64,000 bases of DNA. Origin: Bradyrhizobium sediminis. Its GTDB lineage: Bacteria; Pseudomonadota; Alphaproteobacteria; Rhizobiales; Xanthobacteraceae. The position numbers and the translations under genes are program-made. Under the pieces are notes generated by a model, which was not told where the DNA came from, searched no databases, and worked only from the letters and a program-made list of their open reading frames with translations. This document shows positions 30,976 to 43,425 of the stretch, in pieces. The stretch spans positions 4,400,001 through 4,464,000 of the forward strand of contig NZ_CP076135.1 of assembly GCF_018736105.1 (NCBI RefSeq), read 5' to 3'. Position 1 is the stretch's first letter, and every line of letters starts with the position of its first letter.

Positions 30976-31839
30976 TTACGACCGCGGCTGCGGCGCTATC
31001 TGCCGTGAGGTCATCAGCCGTTCCGTGTTGCCGCCGATCCGGGTCCAGACGTTGCCGGAACAGTAGAACCGCCCCAGCGCGCAGGCTTCGACCCGAAGCG
31101 AGTTCGCGCCCTTCAAGGCCATGGTGCCGTAATAGGTATCGCCGCTGTCATGGCTGTAGACGCTGCCGGTCCATTGCGAGTCGGTCTTCGGCTTCATGTT
31201 GACCAGCACCGCTTCGCCCTTATCGTTCGACGGTGAATGGATCGCATAGCCGCACAGCGCGCGGCCGCAGCGTTCGATGCGAATGGTTCCCTTGCTGCCT
31301 TCGCTCTGCCAGTCGCCGAGCGGCGTATCGGCCGGTTCGTCTTCCATCCGATGCGAGGCTTTCTGAACCTGCGGCGCGGGTTCCGGTCTGGGCGGTGCGG
31401 CCTCGGCCGGCCGCTCGACCGGCGGCAGCGGCGGCAGCGCGGCCGGCGGAAGCACCGTTGCCGGCGCACCGGCCGGAGGCGGCGCGGCGACTGGCTGTGT
31501 CGCGGCGGCGGCCGGTTTGAAAACCGCCGGCGGCGGCGCGGCAGCGGCGGGTGCAACAGGGGAATTGCTCGCAGGCGGAACGGCCTGCGCCGGTACCGGT
31601 GCCGCCGCGGTGACCGTCGTGACCGGCGCGGCAGCCTCGCGCTCGTCGTCATCGAGGTCGCGCCAGCGGCGCGTTTCCTGGATGCCGGGGATCGAGAGCG
31701 TGACGCATGAGGTGGAATGGCAATGCCGGGGCGCCTCGATGCGGATGCGGTGTCCGCCGACGACGAAGGACAGCGAATTGCCGGCATCCGCGGATGAACT
31801 CAGCGCCATCAGCACAACGAGAAACCAGAATCGTTTCAT
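30976..31839 (-). CDS. DUF2147-domain envelope protein, paralogue A
   Basis: 287 residues with a signal peptide (about 1-19, cut after SADA). An N-terminal motif region (GNSLSFVVGGHRIRIEAPRH, Cys39, Cys45) is followed by a roughly 120-residue Ala/Pro linker, then the DUF2147 domain (about 175-275): TPLGDWQSEGSKGTIRIERCG, LCGYAI, VLVNMKP, WTGSVYSHDSGDTYYG, LRVEACALGRFYC. DUF2147 proteins are small periplasmic beta proteins of unknown role. The gene is divergent from a paralogue at 32022, with two CRP-like sites between. Confidence 0.8.
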   Translation of the reverse strand: MKRFWFLVVLMALSSSADAGNSLSFVVGGHRIRIEAPRHCHSTSCVTLSIPGIQETRRWRDLDDDEREAAAPVTTVTAAAPVPAQAVPPASNSPVAPAAAAPPPAVFKPAAAATQPVAAPPPAGAPATVLPPAALPPLPPVERPAEAAPPRPEPAPQVQKASHRMEDEPADTPLGDWQSEGSKGTIRIERCGRALCGYAIHSPSNDKGEAVLVNMKPKTDSQWTGSVYSHDSGDTYYGTMALKGANSLRVEACALGRFYCSGNVWTRIGGNTERLMTSRQIAPQPRS

Positions 31840-31891: not shown

Positions 31892-31955
31892 TGTGACTTG
31901 AATCACCGTGCCGCAGCGCACCGCGTAACCGCCTCGTTGGGTGACCCGCATCACA
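31892..31955. promoter_or_regulatory. Two CRP-like sites GTGA-N6-TCAC
   Basis: Site 1 (31892-31907) reads TGTGACTTGAATCACC and site 2 (31940-31955) GGTGACCCGCATCACA. Both have perfect GTGA and TCAC arms with a 6-bp spacer, the CRP-family consensus, and their centres are 48 bp apart. They lie 53 bp and 67 bp from the start codons of the two divergent DUF2147 genes. Which CRP/FNR-family protein binds is unknown. Confidence 0.6.
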
Positions 31956-32021
31956 GAACCGCGCCCCCGGCCCGGCATAGGGTCCACGGCAAGTTCACCA
32001 GCCCGCTTTCAGGAGGCTCAC

Positions 32022-32768
32022 ATGAAGAAGCTTTATGTTCTCGCCGCGCTGCTGATGGCCACCAGCTCGGCCCATGCCGGCAATTCGATTTCCTTCCAGA
32101 TCGAGGGACACCGCATCCGCATCGAGGCGCCGCGCAATTGCGACTCGCTGTCCTGCATCCAGATCTCGGCGCCGAGCCTTTCCGGCTCCTCCTTCGGCGG
32201 CTTCAAGGGCTTCAAGTCGAAGAACTCCAGCGATGACGATGTCGTCGCCGAGCCGGCACCGAAGGCGGCGCCCGCCCCTGCTCCCGCCGTTCAGGCGATT
32301 GCGCCCCAGTCCGCGGCGCCCGTGACCAACTCCGCCGCCGCCGTCAGCCCCGCGCCCGCCGCGCCGACGACGGTTGCGACCGCTTCGCCCGCGCCGTCGG
32401 TCGGCTTCGATACGCCCGCTCCGGCAGCGGCCCCGGCCGCAGCGCCGCAGCCCGCTCCCGTCGCCGCCGCGCCGGCTGCCGCCCCGACCACGCCGCTCGG
32501 CATCTGGGCGACCGAAGAAAACAAGGGCAACGTCCGCATCGAGGAATGCGGGCAGAATCTGTGCGGCTATGCCGTGAAGACCGGCGAGAAGATCCTGATC
32601 AACATGAAGCCGTCGAACTCGAAATGGACCGGCAAGATCCACGACCCCGACAGCGGCCGCAATTACGACTCGACGATCGCGATGAAGGGAACCAACGCAT
32701 TGCGGGTTCAGGGCTGCGCCTTTGGCGGCATGTTCTGCGGCGGCCAGACTTGGAAGCGCGTCAGCTGA
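32022..32768 (+). CDS. DUF2147-domain envelope protein, paralogue B
   Basis: 248 residues from ATG 32022, with AGGAGG 5 bp upstream. Signal peptide (about 1-19). The mature N-terminus GNSISFQIEGHRIRIEAPRN with Cys39 and Cys45 matches paralogue A almost residue for residue, then an Ala/Pro-rich linker (about 75-160) and the DUF2147 domain (TPLGIWATEENKGNVRIEECG, LCGYAV, ILINMKP, WTGKIHDPDSGRNYDSTIAM). Both domains have conserved cysteines likely to form disulfides in the periplasm. A short FGGFKGFKSKNS stretch is unique to this copy. Confidence 0.8.
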   Translation: MKKLYVLAALLMATSSAHAGNSISFQIEGHRIRIEAPRNCDSLSCIQISAPSLSGSSFGGFKGFKSKNSSDDDVVAEPAPKAAPAPAPAVQAIAPQSAAPVTNSAAAVSPAPAAPTTVATASPAPSVGFDTPAPAAAPAAAPQPAPVAAAPAAAPTTPLGIWATEENKGNVRIEECGQNLCGYAVKTGEKILINMKPSNSKWTGKIHDPDSGRNYDSTIAMKGTNALRVQGCAFGGMFCGGQTWKRVS

Positions 32769-32781
32769 AGCCATCGTTACT

Positions 32782-32822
32782 CGTCATTCCGGGGCGCGCG
32801 AAAGCGCGAACCCGGAATGACG
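32782..32822. repeat. Short palindromic repeat
   Basis: CGTCATTCCGGG (32782-32793) is complementary to the end CCCGGAATGACG (32811-32822), with GCGCGCGAAAGCGCG as a second stem between. It follows the paralogue B stop and resembles widespread alphaproteobacterial REP elements. TTAACGG is repeated directly after it. Confidence 0.75.
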
Positions 32823-32842
32823 GTTAACGGTTAACGGACGCG

Positions 32843-32905
32843 ATGAAACAAATCTCAAGGCGACGAAACCAATTTGTGCGTTCGACGCAAACGTCCTGAA
32901 ACGGT
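32843..32905 (+). promoter_or_regulatory. Upstream element shared with the L,D-transpeptidase gene, copy 1
   Basis: Contains GAAAC at 32845, 32865 and 32898, spacing 20 and 33 bp. The 63-bp block aligns without gaps to 42361-42423, about 46 of 63 identical by eye, including ATGAAACAA, GAAACCA, GCAAACGTC and TGAAACGGT. It ends 74 bp before the ATG of the Cys-rich protein gene. It may be a shared promoter/operator or a transcribed leader. Confidence 0.55.
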
Positions 32906-32979
32906 CGCCGTGTAGCTTCTTCACAACGAGGCGCCCGGGACCGGCGCGTGACTCGGGGCGCAGACCAAGGGGACATTCA

Positions 32980-33300
32980 ATGACTTTCACGGGTTCGAAT
33001 ACGCGCGGCTGCAAATTGCTGATCGCGACCACACTGGCGTTCGGCATGCTGACCACGGCGTCGCTTGCCCACACGCCGGAGCAGGAACAGATGTGCACCG
33101 GCGACGCGATGCGGCTGTGCAACTCGGAAATTCCCGACGTCGGCCGCATCACCGCCTGCATGATCCGGCAGCGCGCCTTGCTCAGCGAAGGCTGCAAGGC
33201 GGTGTTCCAGAAGGAGACGCCCGCGGCGGCCACTCCCGTGAAATATACGACGTCAAAACCCGCCAAGCCGGTCAATCTGGTGCCGGCCCGGGTGAAGTAG
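32980..33300 (+). CDS. Secreted protein with Cys-rich repeat-like motif
   Basis: 106 residues. Signal peptide 1-30 (cut near SLAHTPEQ). The mature part holds four cysteines: EQEQMCTGDAMRLCNSEIPD and ITACMIRQRALLSEGCKAVF, which look like one Cys-rich repeat of the GLG1 type (C-x6-C, x9-12, C, x10-12, C). The tail is Pro/Lys-rich. Likely a small periplasmic disulfide-bonded protein; function unknown. A terminator follows at 33331. The upstream DNA shares an element with the L,D-transpeptidase gene. Confidence 0.75.
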   Translation: MTFTGSNTRGCKLLIATTLAFGMLTTASLAHTPEQEQMCTGDAMRLCNSEIPDVGRITACMIRQRALLSEGCKAVFQKETPAAATPVKYTTSKPAKPVNLVPARVK

Positions 33301-42250: not shown

Positions 42251-42360
42251 CCCGGCACTCGCCACCCCTAATAAATGCCTGAAACCAATCGATAAAAACT
42301 TACCGCTTGGGGTCGGGAAGGAATAACCCCAAGCCGGATTATGTCGTCGAAAGGCCGGCG

Positions 42361-42423
42361 ATGAAACAATTCTTACCGCGATGAAACCATTTTGGCGACA
42401 TTGTGCAAACGTCTTGAAACGGT
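42361..42423 (+). promoter_or_regulatory. Upstream element shared with the Cys-rich protein gene, copy 2
   Basis: GAAAC at 42363, 42383 and 42416, spacing 20 and 33 bp, the same as in copy 1 at 32843. It ends 66 bp before the L,D-transpeptidase ATG. An independent hairpin, GCTTGGGGT (42305-42313) with ACCCCAAGC (42326-42334), lies upstream and may end the TAXI transcript although no U-tract follows. Confidence 0.55.
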
Positions 42424-42489
42424 TGATCGGTACTGGTTTCCCCAACGACGCGCCAAAATGGCGCGCAAGGCGCAAACAGGGGACGACCG

Positions 42490-43173
42490 ATGTTCAACTC
42501 ATTCAGGCTGAATTCCCGCCTCGCAGCCGCCGTCGGCGCGCTGACGATCGGTGCTTTCGCATTTTCCGGCTCCGCCGCGGCCGCGCCGCTGCAGCTGTTT
42601 CCCTTCATCATGACCCCGCCGGTGCAAGCAGCGCCGCCGCCGGTGCAGGCCGCACCTTCCGACGATGAAGGCACCGTGGCCGAGTTGCCGGCGCGCCTGA
42701 AGCGCCAGATCGTCAGCTACGCCAGCCGCGAGGCGCCCGGCACCATCATCATCGATACCCCCAACACCTATCTCTATTACGTGCTGGGCGGCGGACGGGC
42801 GATCCGCTACGGCATCGGCGTCGGCCGCGACGGCTTCACCTGGTCCGGCGTGCAGACCATCAGCAAGAAGGCGGAATGGCCGGATTGGACTCCGCCCCCG
42901 GAGATGATCGCGCGCCAGCCCTACCTGCCGCGTCACATGGCCGGCGGCCCCGGCAATCCGCTCGGCGCCCGCGCCATGTATCTCGGCGGCACCATCTATC
43001 GCATCCACGGCACCAACGCGCCGCACACGATCGGCACCCACGTCTCCTCCGGCTGCCTGCGGCTGACCAATGAAGACGTCACCGACCTCTATTCGCGCGT
43101 CAACGTCGGCACCAAGGTGATCGTGCTGCCGATGGACCGCCGCGCCGACAATTCGATCGGCAAGCGGGGATGA
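42490..43173 (+). CDS. L,D-transpeptidase (YkuD domain)
   Basis: 227 residues with a signal peptide (about 1-32). Residues about 85-215 are the YkuD domain: GTIIIDTPNTYLYYVLGGGR, the catalytic block YRIHGTNAPHTIGTHVSSGC with His173 and Cys189, then RLTNEDVTDLYSRV. It cross-links meso-DAP residues or attaches proteins to peptidoglycan in the periplasm. A proline-rich linker (APPPVQAAPS) precedes the domain. A strong bidirectional terminator follows. Upstream it carries the 63-bp element shared with the secreted Cys-rich protein gene. Confidence 0.92.
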   Translation: MFNSFRLNSRLAAAVGALTIGAFAFSGSAAAAPLQLFPFIMTPPVQAAPPPVQAAPSDDEGTVAELPARLKRQIVSYASREAPGTIIIDTPNTYLYYVLGGGRAIRYGIGVGRDGFTWSGVQTISKKAEWPDWTPPPEMIARQPYLPRHMAGGPGNPLGARAMYLGGTIYRIHGTNAPHTIGTHVSSGCLRLTNEDVTDLYSRVNVGTKVIVLPMDRRADNSIGKRG

Positions 43174-43233: not shown

Positions 43234-43250
43234 GTTTTCGCACACATCCC

Positions 43251-43297
43251 CTCATCCTTCGAGACGCCCGCCTGCGGGCGGGCTCCTCAGGATGAGG
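43251..43297. repeat. REP-like palindrome, copy near the GIY-YIG gene (1)
   Basis: CTCATCCTTCGAGACGC, then CCGCCTGCGGGCGGGC and TCCTCAGGATGAGG: same family as at 9591. The central stem is CCGCC-TGC-GGGCGG. Confidence 0.85.
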
Positions 43298-43368
43298 CCG
43301 CGATGGTCTGGCGGGCATCCTTTGAGAGCTGCCAACTCACTTCTTGAATTTGACACACCGGCAGTTAG

Positions 43369-43413
43369 CCTCATCCTGAGGAGCGGCGTCTTCGCCGCGT
43401 CTCGAAGGATGGG
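43369..43413. repeat. REP-like palindrome, copy near the GIY-YIG gene (2)
   Basis: CCTCATCCTGAGGAGC, then GGCGTCTTCGCCGC and GTCTCGAAGGATGGG, reversed relative to the copy at 43251. It ends 12 bp before the GIY-YIG ATG, so its purine-rich end lies where the ribosome-binding site should be. Confidence 0.85.
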
Positions 43414-43425
43414 GCGTGTACGGGA

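Follow-up and report, generated by a model that had tools for sequence, protein, structure and literature searches.

The closest described system is the promoter of ecfQ (bll1028) in Bradyrhizobium japonicum and its relatives. According to the available parts of Masloboeva et al., 2012 (PMC3420878), this promoter carries GAAAC boxes at −26, −59 and −80, an inverted repeat TGTTTC-N17-GAAACA, and the −35 and −10 sequences GCAGAC and TAACAAT, whose 20 nt spacing was called 'unusually long'. The transcription start of ecfQ was mapped, and the gene was induced 34.8-fold by H2O2. In the same parts of the paper, the element is described for six ecfQ-type genes and its regulator is given as 'yet unidentified', the response regulator at the ecfQ locus is named Bll1029, and the genes lowered in an ecfQ mutant have no common upstream motif, a separate regulator being favoured. 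The ecfQ peaks are low in the available part of a start-site paper on B. japonicum (PMC4842269).

Regulators of the alphaproteobacterial envelope have also been described, here cited from the available parts of the respective papers. CenR of Rhodobacter sphaeroides recognises TGA-N8-TGA, and a putative L,D-transpeptidase gene is among the genes whose activation by CenR is predicted (PMC9275681). The site reported for ChvI is either GCC-N8-GCC or TTGC-N3-GCAA, and that of LdtR, which activates ldtP of Liberibacter, is the 18 nt sequence ATATTCCTTGTATTTTAA (PMC3999280). Parts of PMC10746171, PMC9561847, PMC3687685, PMC9731502 and PMC9491525 were drawn on as well.

Two copies of the element in one window

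The analysed window is a stretch of 64,000 nt from Bradyrhizobium sediminis, in which the original prediction had pointed out two similar blocks with three GAAAC motifs at a common spacing. Both the gap-free alignment and the spacing were borne out. Positions 32843-32905 and 42361-42423 are identical at 46/63, and GAAAC starts at 32845, 32865 and 32898 in copy 1 and at 42363, 42383 and 42416 in copy 2, which places the second and third boxes at +20 and +53 from box 1 in both blocks. Copy 2 aside, the next-best ungapped 63-mer of the window matches copy 1 at 29 positions on the + strand and at 31 on the − strand, and GAAAC-N15-GAAAC is found in the window at the two copies only. We also used a 113-position profile derived from 67 of 117 distinct elements, after exclusion of near-duplicates, copies from the own genome, elements that scored under 21 and ecfQ copies above 18. 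This profile scored the window copies at 68.6 and 68.2 bits (E about 1e-20), the following match in the window reaching 9 bits. We have strong confidence in the reading of the two blocks as copies of a single conserved operator that belongs to a regulon. Their parts and target genes are as follows.

32845..32849, + strand: copy 1 box 1, GAAAC, equivalent to ecfQ box −80 (sequence, profile match)
32865..32869, + strand: copy 1 box 2, GAAAC, equivalent to ecfQ box −59 (sequence, profile match)
32887..32892, + strand: copy 1 GCAAAC, overlapping the 11-bp upstream partner of box 3, at the position of the published ecfQ −35 GCAGAC (sequence, partner spacing, available part of PMC3420878)
32898..32902, + strand: copy 1 box 3, GAAAC, equivalent to ecfQ box −26 (sequence)
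32913..32918, + strand: copy 1 predicted −10, TAGCTT, 15 bp past the start of box 3 (conserved position, analogy with the mapped ecfQ promoter)
32980..33300, + strand: copy 1 target gene, for a protein of 106 aa that has 5 Cys, no Pfam family and what by eye is an apparent signal sequence (orthologues with the element in five named Bradyrhizobium records)
42341..42348, − strand: copy 2 partial inverted box ATGTCGTC, matching 6/8, at the usual −22 from box 1 (sequence)
42363..42367, + strand: copy 2 box 1, GAAAC (sequence)
42383..42387, + strand: copy 2 box 2, GAAAC (sequence)
42405..42410, + strand: copy 2 GCAAAC, at the −35 position, overlapping the 11-bp partner of box 3 (sequence, partner spacing)
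42416..42420, + strand: copy 2 box 3, GAAAC (sequence)
42431..42436, + strand: copy 2 predicted −10, TACTGG (sequence, conserved position)
42490..43173, + strand: copy 2 target gene, 227-aa L,D-transpeptidase, YkuD, PF03734, E 1.9e-24 (Pfam; element kept at 25/30 best-matching loci)

Both window copies share with the published ecfQ element the −26/−59/−80 box spacing and a −10 beginning with TA at a fixed distance from box 3. They differ from it in the outer repeat: TGTTTC-N17-GAAACA is found in neither, as copy 1 has no outer arm and the arm of copy 2 matches at 6/8. The copy upstream of the sigma factor gene in the same genome (C1:675698-675755) is the published element itself. Since the same boxes were published in 2012 for the ecfQ promoter, the element is not wholly unknown. 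What is new, as far as the open-licence PMC papers go, is that the element marks a regulon beyond ecfQ-type genes, a reading that we regard as strong. The present work adds to that of Masloboeva et al. four other gene families, both window genes included, and a candidate regulator. The available parts of the papers give no expression value for the window target genes.

A known envelope regulator (CenR, ChvI/BvrR or LdtR) might read the element, given that LdtR activates an L,D-transpeptidase gene and CenR is predicted to do so. The blocks were compared with the sites reported for CenR, ChvI and LdtR. TGA-N8-TGA is absent from both blocks, where TGA spacings are 53 in copy 1 and 20 and 33 in copy 2, and on reading neither block contains GCC, TTGC-N3-GCAA or an 18 nt sequence like ATATTCCTTGTATTTTAA. 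As the reported sites are not in the blocks, CenR, ChvI and the MarR-type regulator LdtR were rejected as readers. The CenKR regulon, as far as described in the available part of PMC9275681, resembles the present one in its OmpR-family regulator and its mainly exported or envelope targets including a putative L,D-transpeptidase, but differs in its TGA-N8-TGA site and its larger size, with 31 transcription units carrying the motif. Similarly, LdtR-ldtP of Liberibacter and Sinorhizobium shares the transcriptional activation of an L,D-transpeptidase gene but has a different 18 nt site, which the present blocks lack (PMC3999280, available part). The exact GAAAC pattern, moreover, has no convincing match outside the family, where an order-wide scan returned 2/286 genomes (G229 and G312), both without inner conservation and taken as chance. 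It is thus very unlikely that a known envelope regulator of this kind reads the element. In a wide look outside the family, a weak match upstream of a different ECF gene (G050) was also taken as chance.

Two features were noted beside copy 1. Immediately before it, at 32822-32836, the sequence forms a short direct repeat, GGTTAACGGTTAACGG, at the place of the inverted GTTTCGTC box of many other elements. The divergent neighbours at 30976-31839 (− strand) and 31941-32768 (+ strand) have similar exported-looking products, an apparent duplication.

Architecture of the element

The boxes of the predicted three-GAAAC motif are real, but the conserved unit is longer, roughly GACGAAACAATTCT-N4/5-GCGAYGAAACCATTTT-N10-GCRRACNTCCNGAAAC-N10-TA, and this longer core is common to all four copies of the literal pattern in the own genome. 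Boxes and spacing are conserved far above the flanks. Among the 117 distinct elements, at least one of which is a doubtful member (L012, opposite strand), gap 1 is 20 bp (74) or 21 bp (43) and gap 2 is 33 bp (105) or 32 bp (12). The TA of the −10 lies 15-16 bp past the start of box 3, with T in 109/115 and A in 108/115 elements. Because the third GAAAC falls between the published −35 and −10 positions of ecfQ, part of the block is core promoter.

Further upstream, the element is often opened by the inverted GTTTCGTC, which is partly kept in copy 2 and absent from copy 1. At a cut-off of 7/8, this outer arm stands at −22 in 39/50 ecfQ elements and 15/19 secr51-121 elements, and in 0/7 cysrich and 0/25 ldt elements, two ldt elements having it at −21. 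By these counts, the inverted box is common in the regulon but not general. On the promoter side, a GCGAAAC-like 7-mer lies 11 bp upstream of box 3 with a mean of 3.90/7 matches against 1.84 expected, which is the best among offsets of 7-15 bp; offset 9 is second best (3.40), and in all six classes offset 11 exceeds its neighbours 10 and 12. A consistent partner at 11 bp is lacking for boxes 1 and 2, with the exception of GAAAC 11 bp upstream of box 1 in 8/25 ldt elements.

OmpR/PhoB-type operators have tandem half-sites spaced by 10-11 bp, and in the pho-box promoter layout, a tandem 11-bp site ends 10 bp before the −10. The proximal pair of the present element, a direct repeat of 11 bp that stops 10 bp short of the −10, may correspond to such a site, and the candidate reader has a receiver and a Trans_reg_C domain. 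In contrast, the distal boxes of the element are solitary, at distances of 20-21 and 32-33 bp, many elements carry an inverted outer box, and the absence of a consistent tandem partner at boxes 1 and 2 is unusual for OmpR-type sites.

Target genes and distribution

In the genome-wide scan suggested with the original prediction, GAAAC-N15-GAAAC-N28-GAAAC was found four times in the own genome of 5,450,494 bp and its reversed-pattern control 0 times, as this control was in every pattern scan where it was used (own genome, genus, family, order). The copies beyond the window are the following.

C1:675698-675755, minus strand: copy before an ECF sigma factor gene (pattern scan)
C1:2572122-2572179: copy before a gene for a small exported-looking protein (pattern scan)

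We take this ECF gene for ecfQ (bll1028), judging by its length, its element and the response regulator encoded next to it. Searching the own genome with the profile gave five strong sites of 68-82 bits, located upstream of the genes for the Cys-containing protein, the L,D-transpeptidase, a 53-aa/136-aa exported pair, an 85-aa exported protein and EcfQ, of which the site before the 85-aa gene is additional to the four literal copies. At these sites, box 1 lies about 120-135 bp ahead of the start codon. The products were classed as exported by visual inspection of their N-termini. Pfam gave no family, and NCBIfam nothing above cut-off, for the 106-, 51- and 136-residue queries, the second of which is two residues short of the own 53-aa peptide. 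Two weaker sites follow at 31.7 and 28.6 bits. The weaker sites, listed in genome order as C1:3164327-3164382 and C1:4289107-4289197, retain boxes 2 and 3 before small ORFs, with box 1 degenerate or missing. The ORF behind the 31.7-bit site has a Met from which an exported-looking protein of 65 aa would start, and another small ORF lies behind the 28.6-bit site. Both are possible further members of the regulon.

The same downstream genes recur in other genomes, namely those for a 203-aa ECF sigma factor, a peptide (~51-61 aa) with a protein of ~121-136 aa behind it, the L,D-transpeptidase, the 106-aa Cys protein and an 84-85-aa protein. Between 4 and 8 sites at E 1e-6 or better are present in each of the 21 genus genomes searched, some of which had supplied profile elements. 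With up to two mismatches, the core is present in 33/60 genomes, consisting of 32/36 of the same genus, own genome included, and 1/24 other-family genomes. The element is kept upstream of 25/30 best-matching ldt loci (again counting the own one) and of the Cys-protein gene in 5/5 loci from named Bradyrhizobium records. Where it is present, the upstream regions of orthologues score 21-25, against a maximum of 16 in 2947 random window stretches.

The two similar blocks in one window might also be remnants of a dispersed repeat or mobile element that lie near genes by chance. A repeat without relation to gene starts did not appear, however, in that the five strong own-genome sites all precede genes. 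The conservation of boxes and spacing well above the flanks and the few copies ahead of the same gene families across genera likewise argue against this origin, which is hardly credible; among the sites inspected, none lay inside a gene or had conserved ends. As the element stands ahead of the same genes in the own and other genomes, the predicted 'operator of an unknown envelope regulon' fits with changes: the regulon is small and its targets are mostly exported or cell-wall proteins, but the element is partly published, a sigma factor gene is included, and the block is partly core promoter.

Two observations concern the small targets. Small exported-looking proteins with a C...WP...CL signature recur, alone or ahead of a transpeptidase gene (L054-L057, L150, L221, L222, L223). 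On the minus strand of L153 (G103), a second element lies just after ecfQ and before a 62-aa exported-looking ORF, so that ecfQ is flanked by two elements.

The response regulator beside ecfQ as a candidate reader

Directly before ecfQ are encoded a HAMP/HATPase kinase-like protein, a receiver-DUF3369-kinase protein and an OmpR-type regulator with receiver and Trans_reg_C domains (Pfam). The regulator gene adjoins ecfQ in 16 of 17 ecfQ-like loci read (57-100% identity), most of which were chosen for having the element; in the exception, G003, it is on another contig. Conversely, ecfQ is next to the regulator in 28 of the 30 regulator loci returned, and all 28 have a recognisable element between the two genes, sometimes with a degenerate box 1, as judged by eye on the best windows. 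Of 20 further stretches, 12 contain an ecfQ-like gene (57-82% identity), always with an element of varying completeness upstream of it; in G177, the ecfQ-like gene lies about 2.8 kb from the regulator. In three other genera (G085, G087 and G094; g51, g53 and g60), ecfQ is not beside the regulator, and within about 1-3 kb of the regulator the element heads a gene for a small exported-looking protein followed by a transpeptidase homologue with 48-55% identity to that of the window. Thus, element-bearing targets of two kinds are found near the regulator.

An autoregulated ECF sigma promoter, read by EcfQ itself or by a class-33 paralogue, could explain why an ecfQ gene bears the element, and ECF sigma genes are often autoregulated. 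This reading is disfavoured by G141 and G078, which have the element and no close ecfQ, just a 58%-identical paralogue, and by the differing paralogue promoters, in which, by eye, the GAAAC array is absent and another pattern, TCGAACC..CCGACCAA, is found. Neither is the box spacing of the −35/−10 type, and Masloboeva et al., who saw no shared motif upstream of the genes lowered in the ecfQ mutant, favoured a separate regulator (PMC3420878, available part). We give EcfQ as the reader very little weight. In the class-33 ECF paralogue promoters (L123-L127, L129-L134), several have TCGAACC ... CCGACCAA just before the gene, by eye, which may be an autoregulated ECF33 promoter.

Co-occurrence was computed for this one regulator family, with a match at E 1e-80 or better counted as regulator-positive (51/149 family genomes). 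The exact core is present in 36/149 family genomes, 35 of which are among the 51 regulator-positive ones. Much of this co-occurrence stems from the ecfQ promoter adjoining the regulator gene. When the 61 exact-pattern sites were divided by hand into linked and unlinked ones from their coordinates, unlinked sites were found in 22/51 regulator-positive versus 0/98 regulator-negative genomes (Fisher 1.4e-12, shared ancestry ignored). The even comparison is that of the pattern scans, as the more lenient look for elements near the regulator gene covered regulator-positive genomes only. With mismatches allowed, an unlinked site also comes up in one genome that is regulator-negative, G078, in which a well-kept element precedes the gene for an 84-aa exported-looking protein, regulator matches are just 35-38% identical, and no close ecfQ is found. 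In G119, the regulator is split in two frames and the ecfQ element is kept. Four genomes (G076, G110, G112 and G136) have a regulator match of about 72-78% identity with no element found near it, and of the 5/30 ldt loci that lack the element, four are in regulator-positive genomes. Recent loss, paralogues or another reader could account for these cases, and because of them the regulator assignment stays moderate: the OmpR-family regulator beside ecfQ is, with moderate confidence, the candidate reader of the element, on the basis of linkage and co-occurrence.

The operator of the same regulon could instead be read by an unlinked factor, for example an oxidative stress regulator of the AraC, LysR or MerR type, the two-component genes being mere neighbours of one target. 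The element without regulator in G078 would fit such a factor, and so would the distal boxes, which resemble single extended asymmetric sites 20-21 bp apart. The layout of these boxes recalls AraC/XylS direct repeats, and the 20 nt −35/−10 spacing of ecfQ recalls MerR promoters, in which −35 and −10 are separated by 19-20 bp with a palindrome in between. On the other hand, the response regulator gene is linked to element-bearing targets in two arrangements, and unlinked sites are confined to regulator-positive genomes in the exact-pattern scan. We consider an unlinked reader rather unlikely, although the case against it is weak, as the look at other regulators covered the inspected locus neighbourhoods only.

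We therefore lean, by somewhat better than an even chance, towards an activator-dependent promoter element that governs a small regulon of exported and cell-wall proteins together with EcfQ and is read by the ecfQ-adjacent OmpR-family regulator. From the element, its conservation, the gene set and the linkage and co-occurrence of the regulator, we infer its binding, activation, phosphorylation route and signal as follows. The kinase proteins encoded just before the regulator would phosphorylate it (presumably Bll1029 in B. japonicum), and the phosphorylated regulator would bind the GAAAC boxes, which would lie on one helix face at 0, about 2 and about 5 turns. The proximal tandem site, formed by box 3 and its partner 11 bp upstream and ending 10 bp before the −10, may take up a dimer that replaces a good −35 and recruits RNA polymerase; a regulator standing in for the −35 would explain the 'unusually long' spacer of ecfQ. 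Boxes 1 and 2, often with the inverted outer box, might increase occupancy. In this way, EcfQ would be increased jointly with the transpeptidase and a number of small exported proteins by a single signal, which is probably oxidative damage or damage to the envelope.

Control of this ECF factor may be transcriptional and part of periplasm repair, with a multi-kinase phosphorelay of Bradyrhizobium and its relatives, made up of the HAMP/HATPase kinase-like protein, the receiver/DUF3369/kinase hybrid and the OmpR-type regulator, turning on an ECF sigma factor without an adjacent anti-sigma factor gene, a wall-crosslinking enzyme and uncharacterised exported proteins through single GAAAC boxes on the same face; we put this wider picture at slightly below an even chance. 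The 2012 study left the oxidative-stress regulator of ecfQ open, and the present work names a single candidate next door and supplies other member promoters beyond ecfQ. The gene set suggests that the response includes cell-wall crosslinking and uncharacterised exported proteins. The switch is probably, though not certainly, the neighbouring two-component system, as judged from linkage and co-occurrence. If so, agriculturally important nitrogen fixers and their relatives would have a new envelope and oxidative stress regulon.

A palindromic dispersed repeat, CTCATCCTTCGAGACGC...CTCAGGATGAGG, is located at 43250-43420 of the window, behind the transpeptidase gene, and recurs upstream of ecfQ in the stretch that separates it from the regulator gene (G000 C1).
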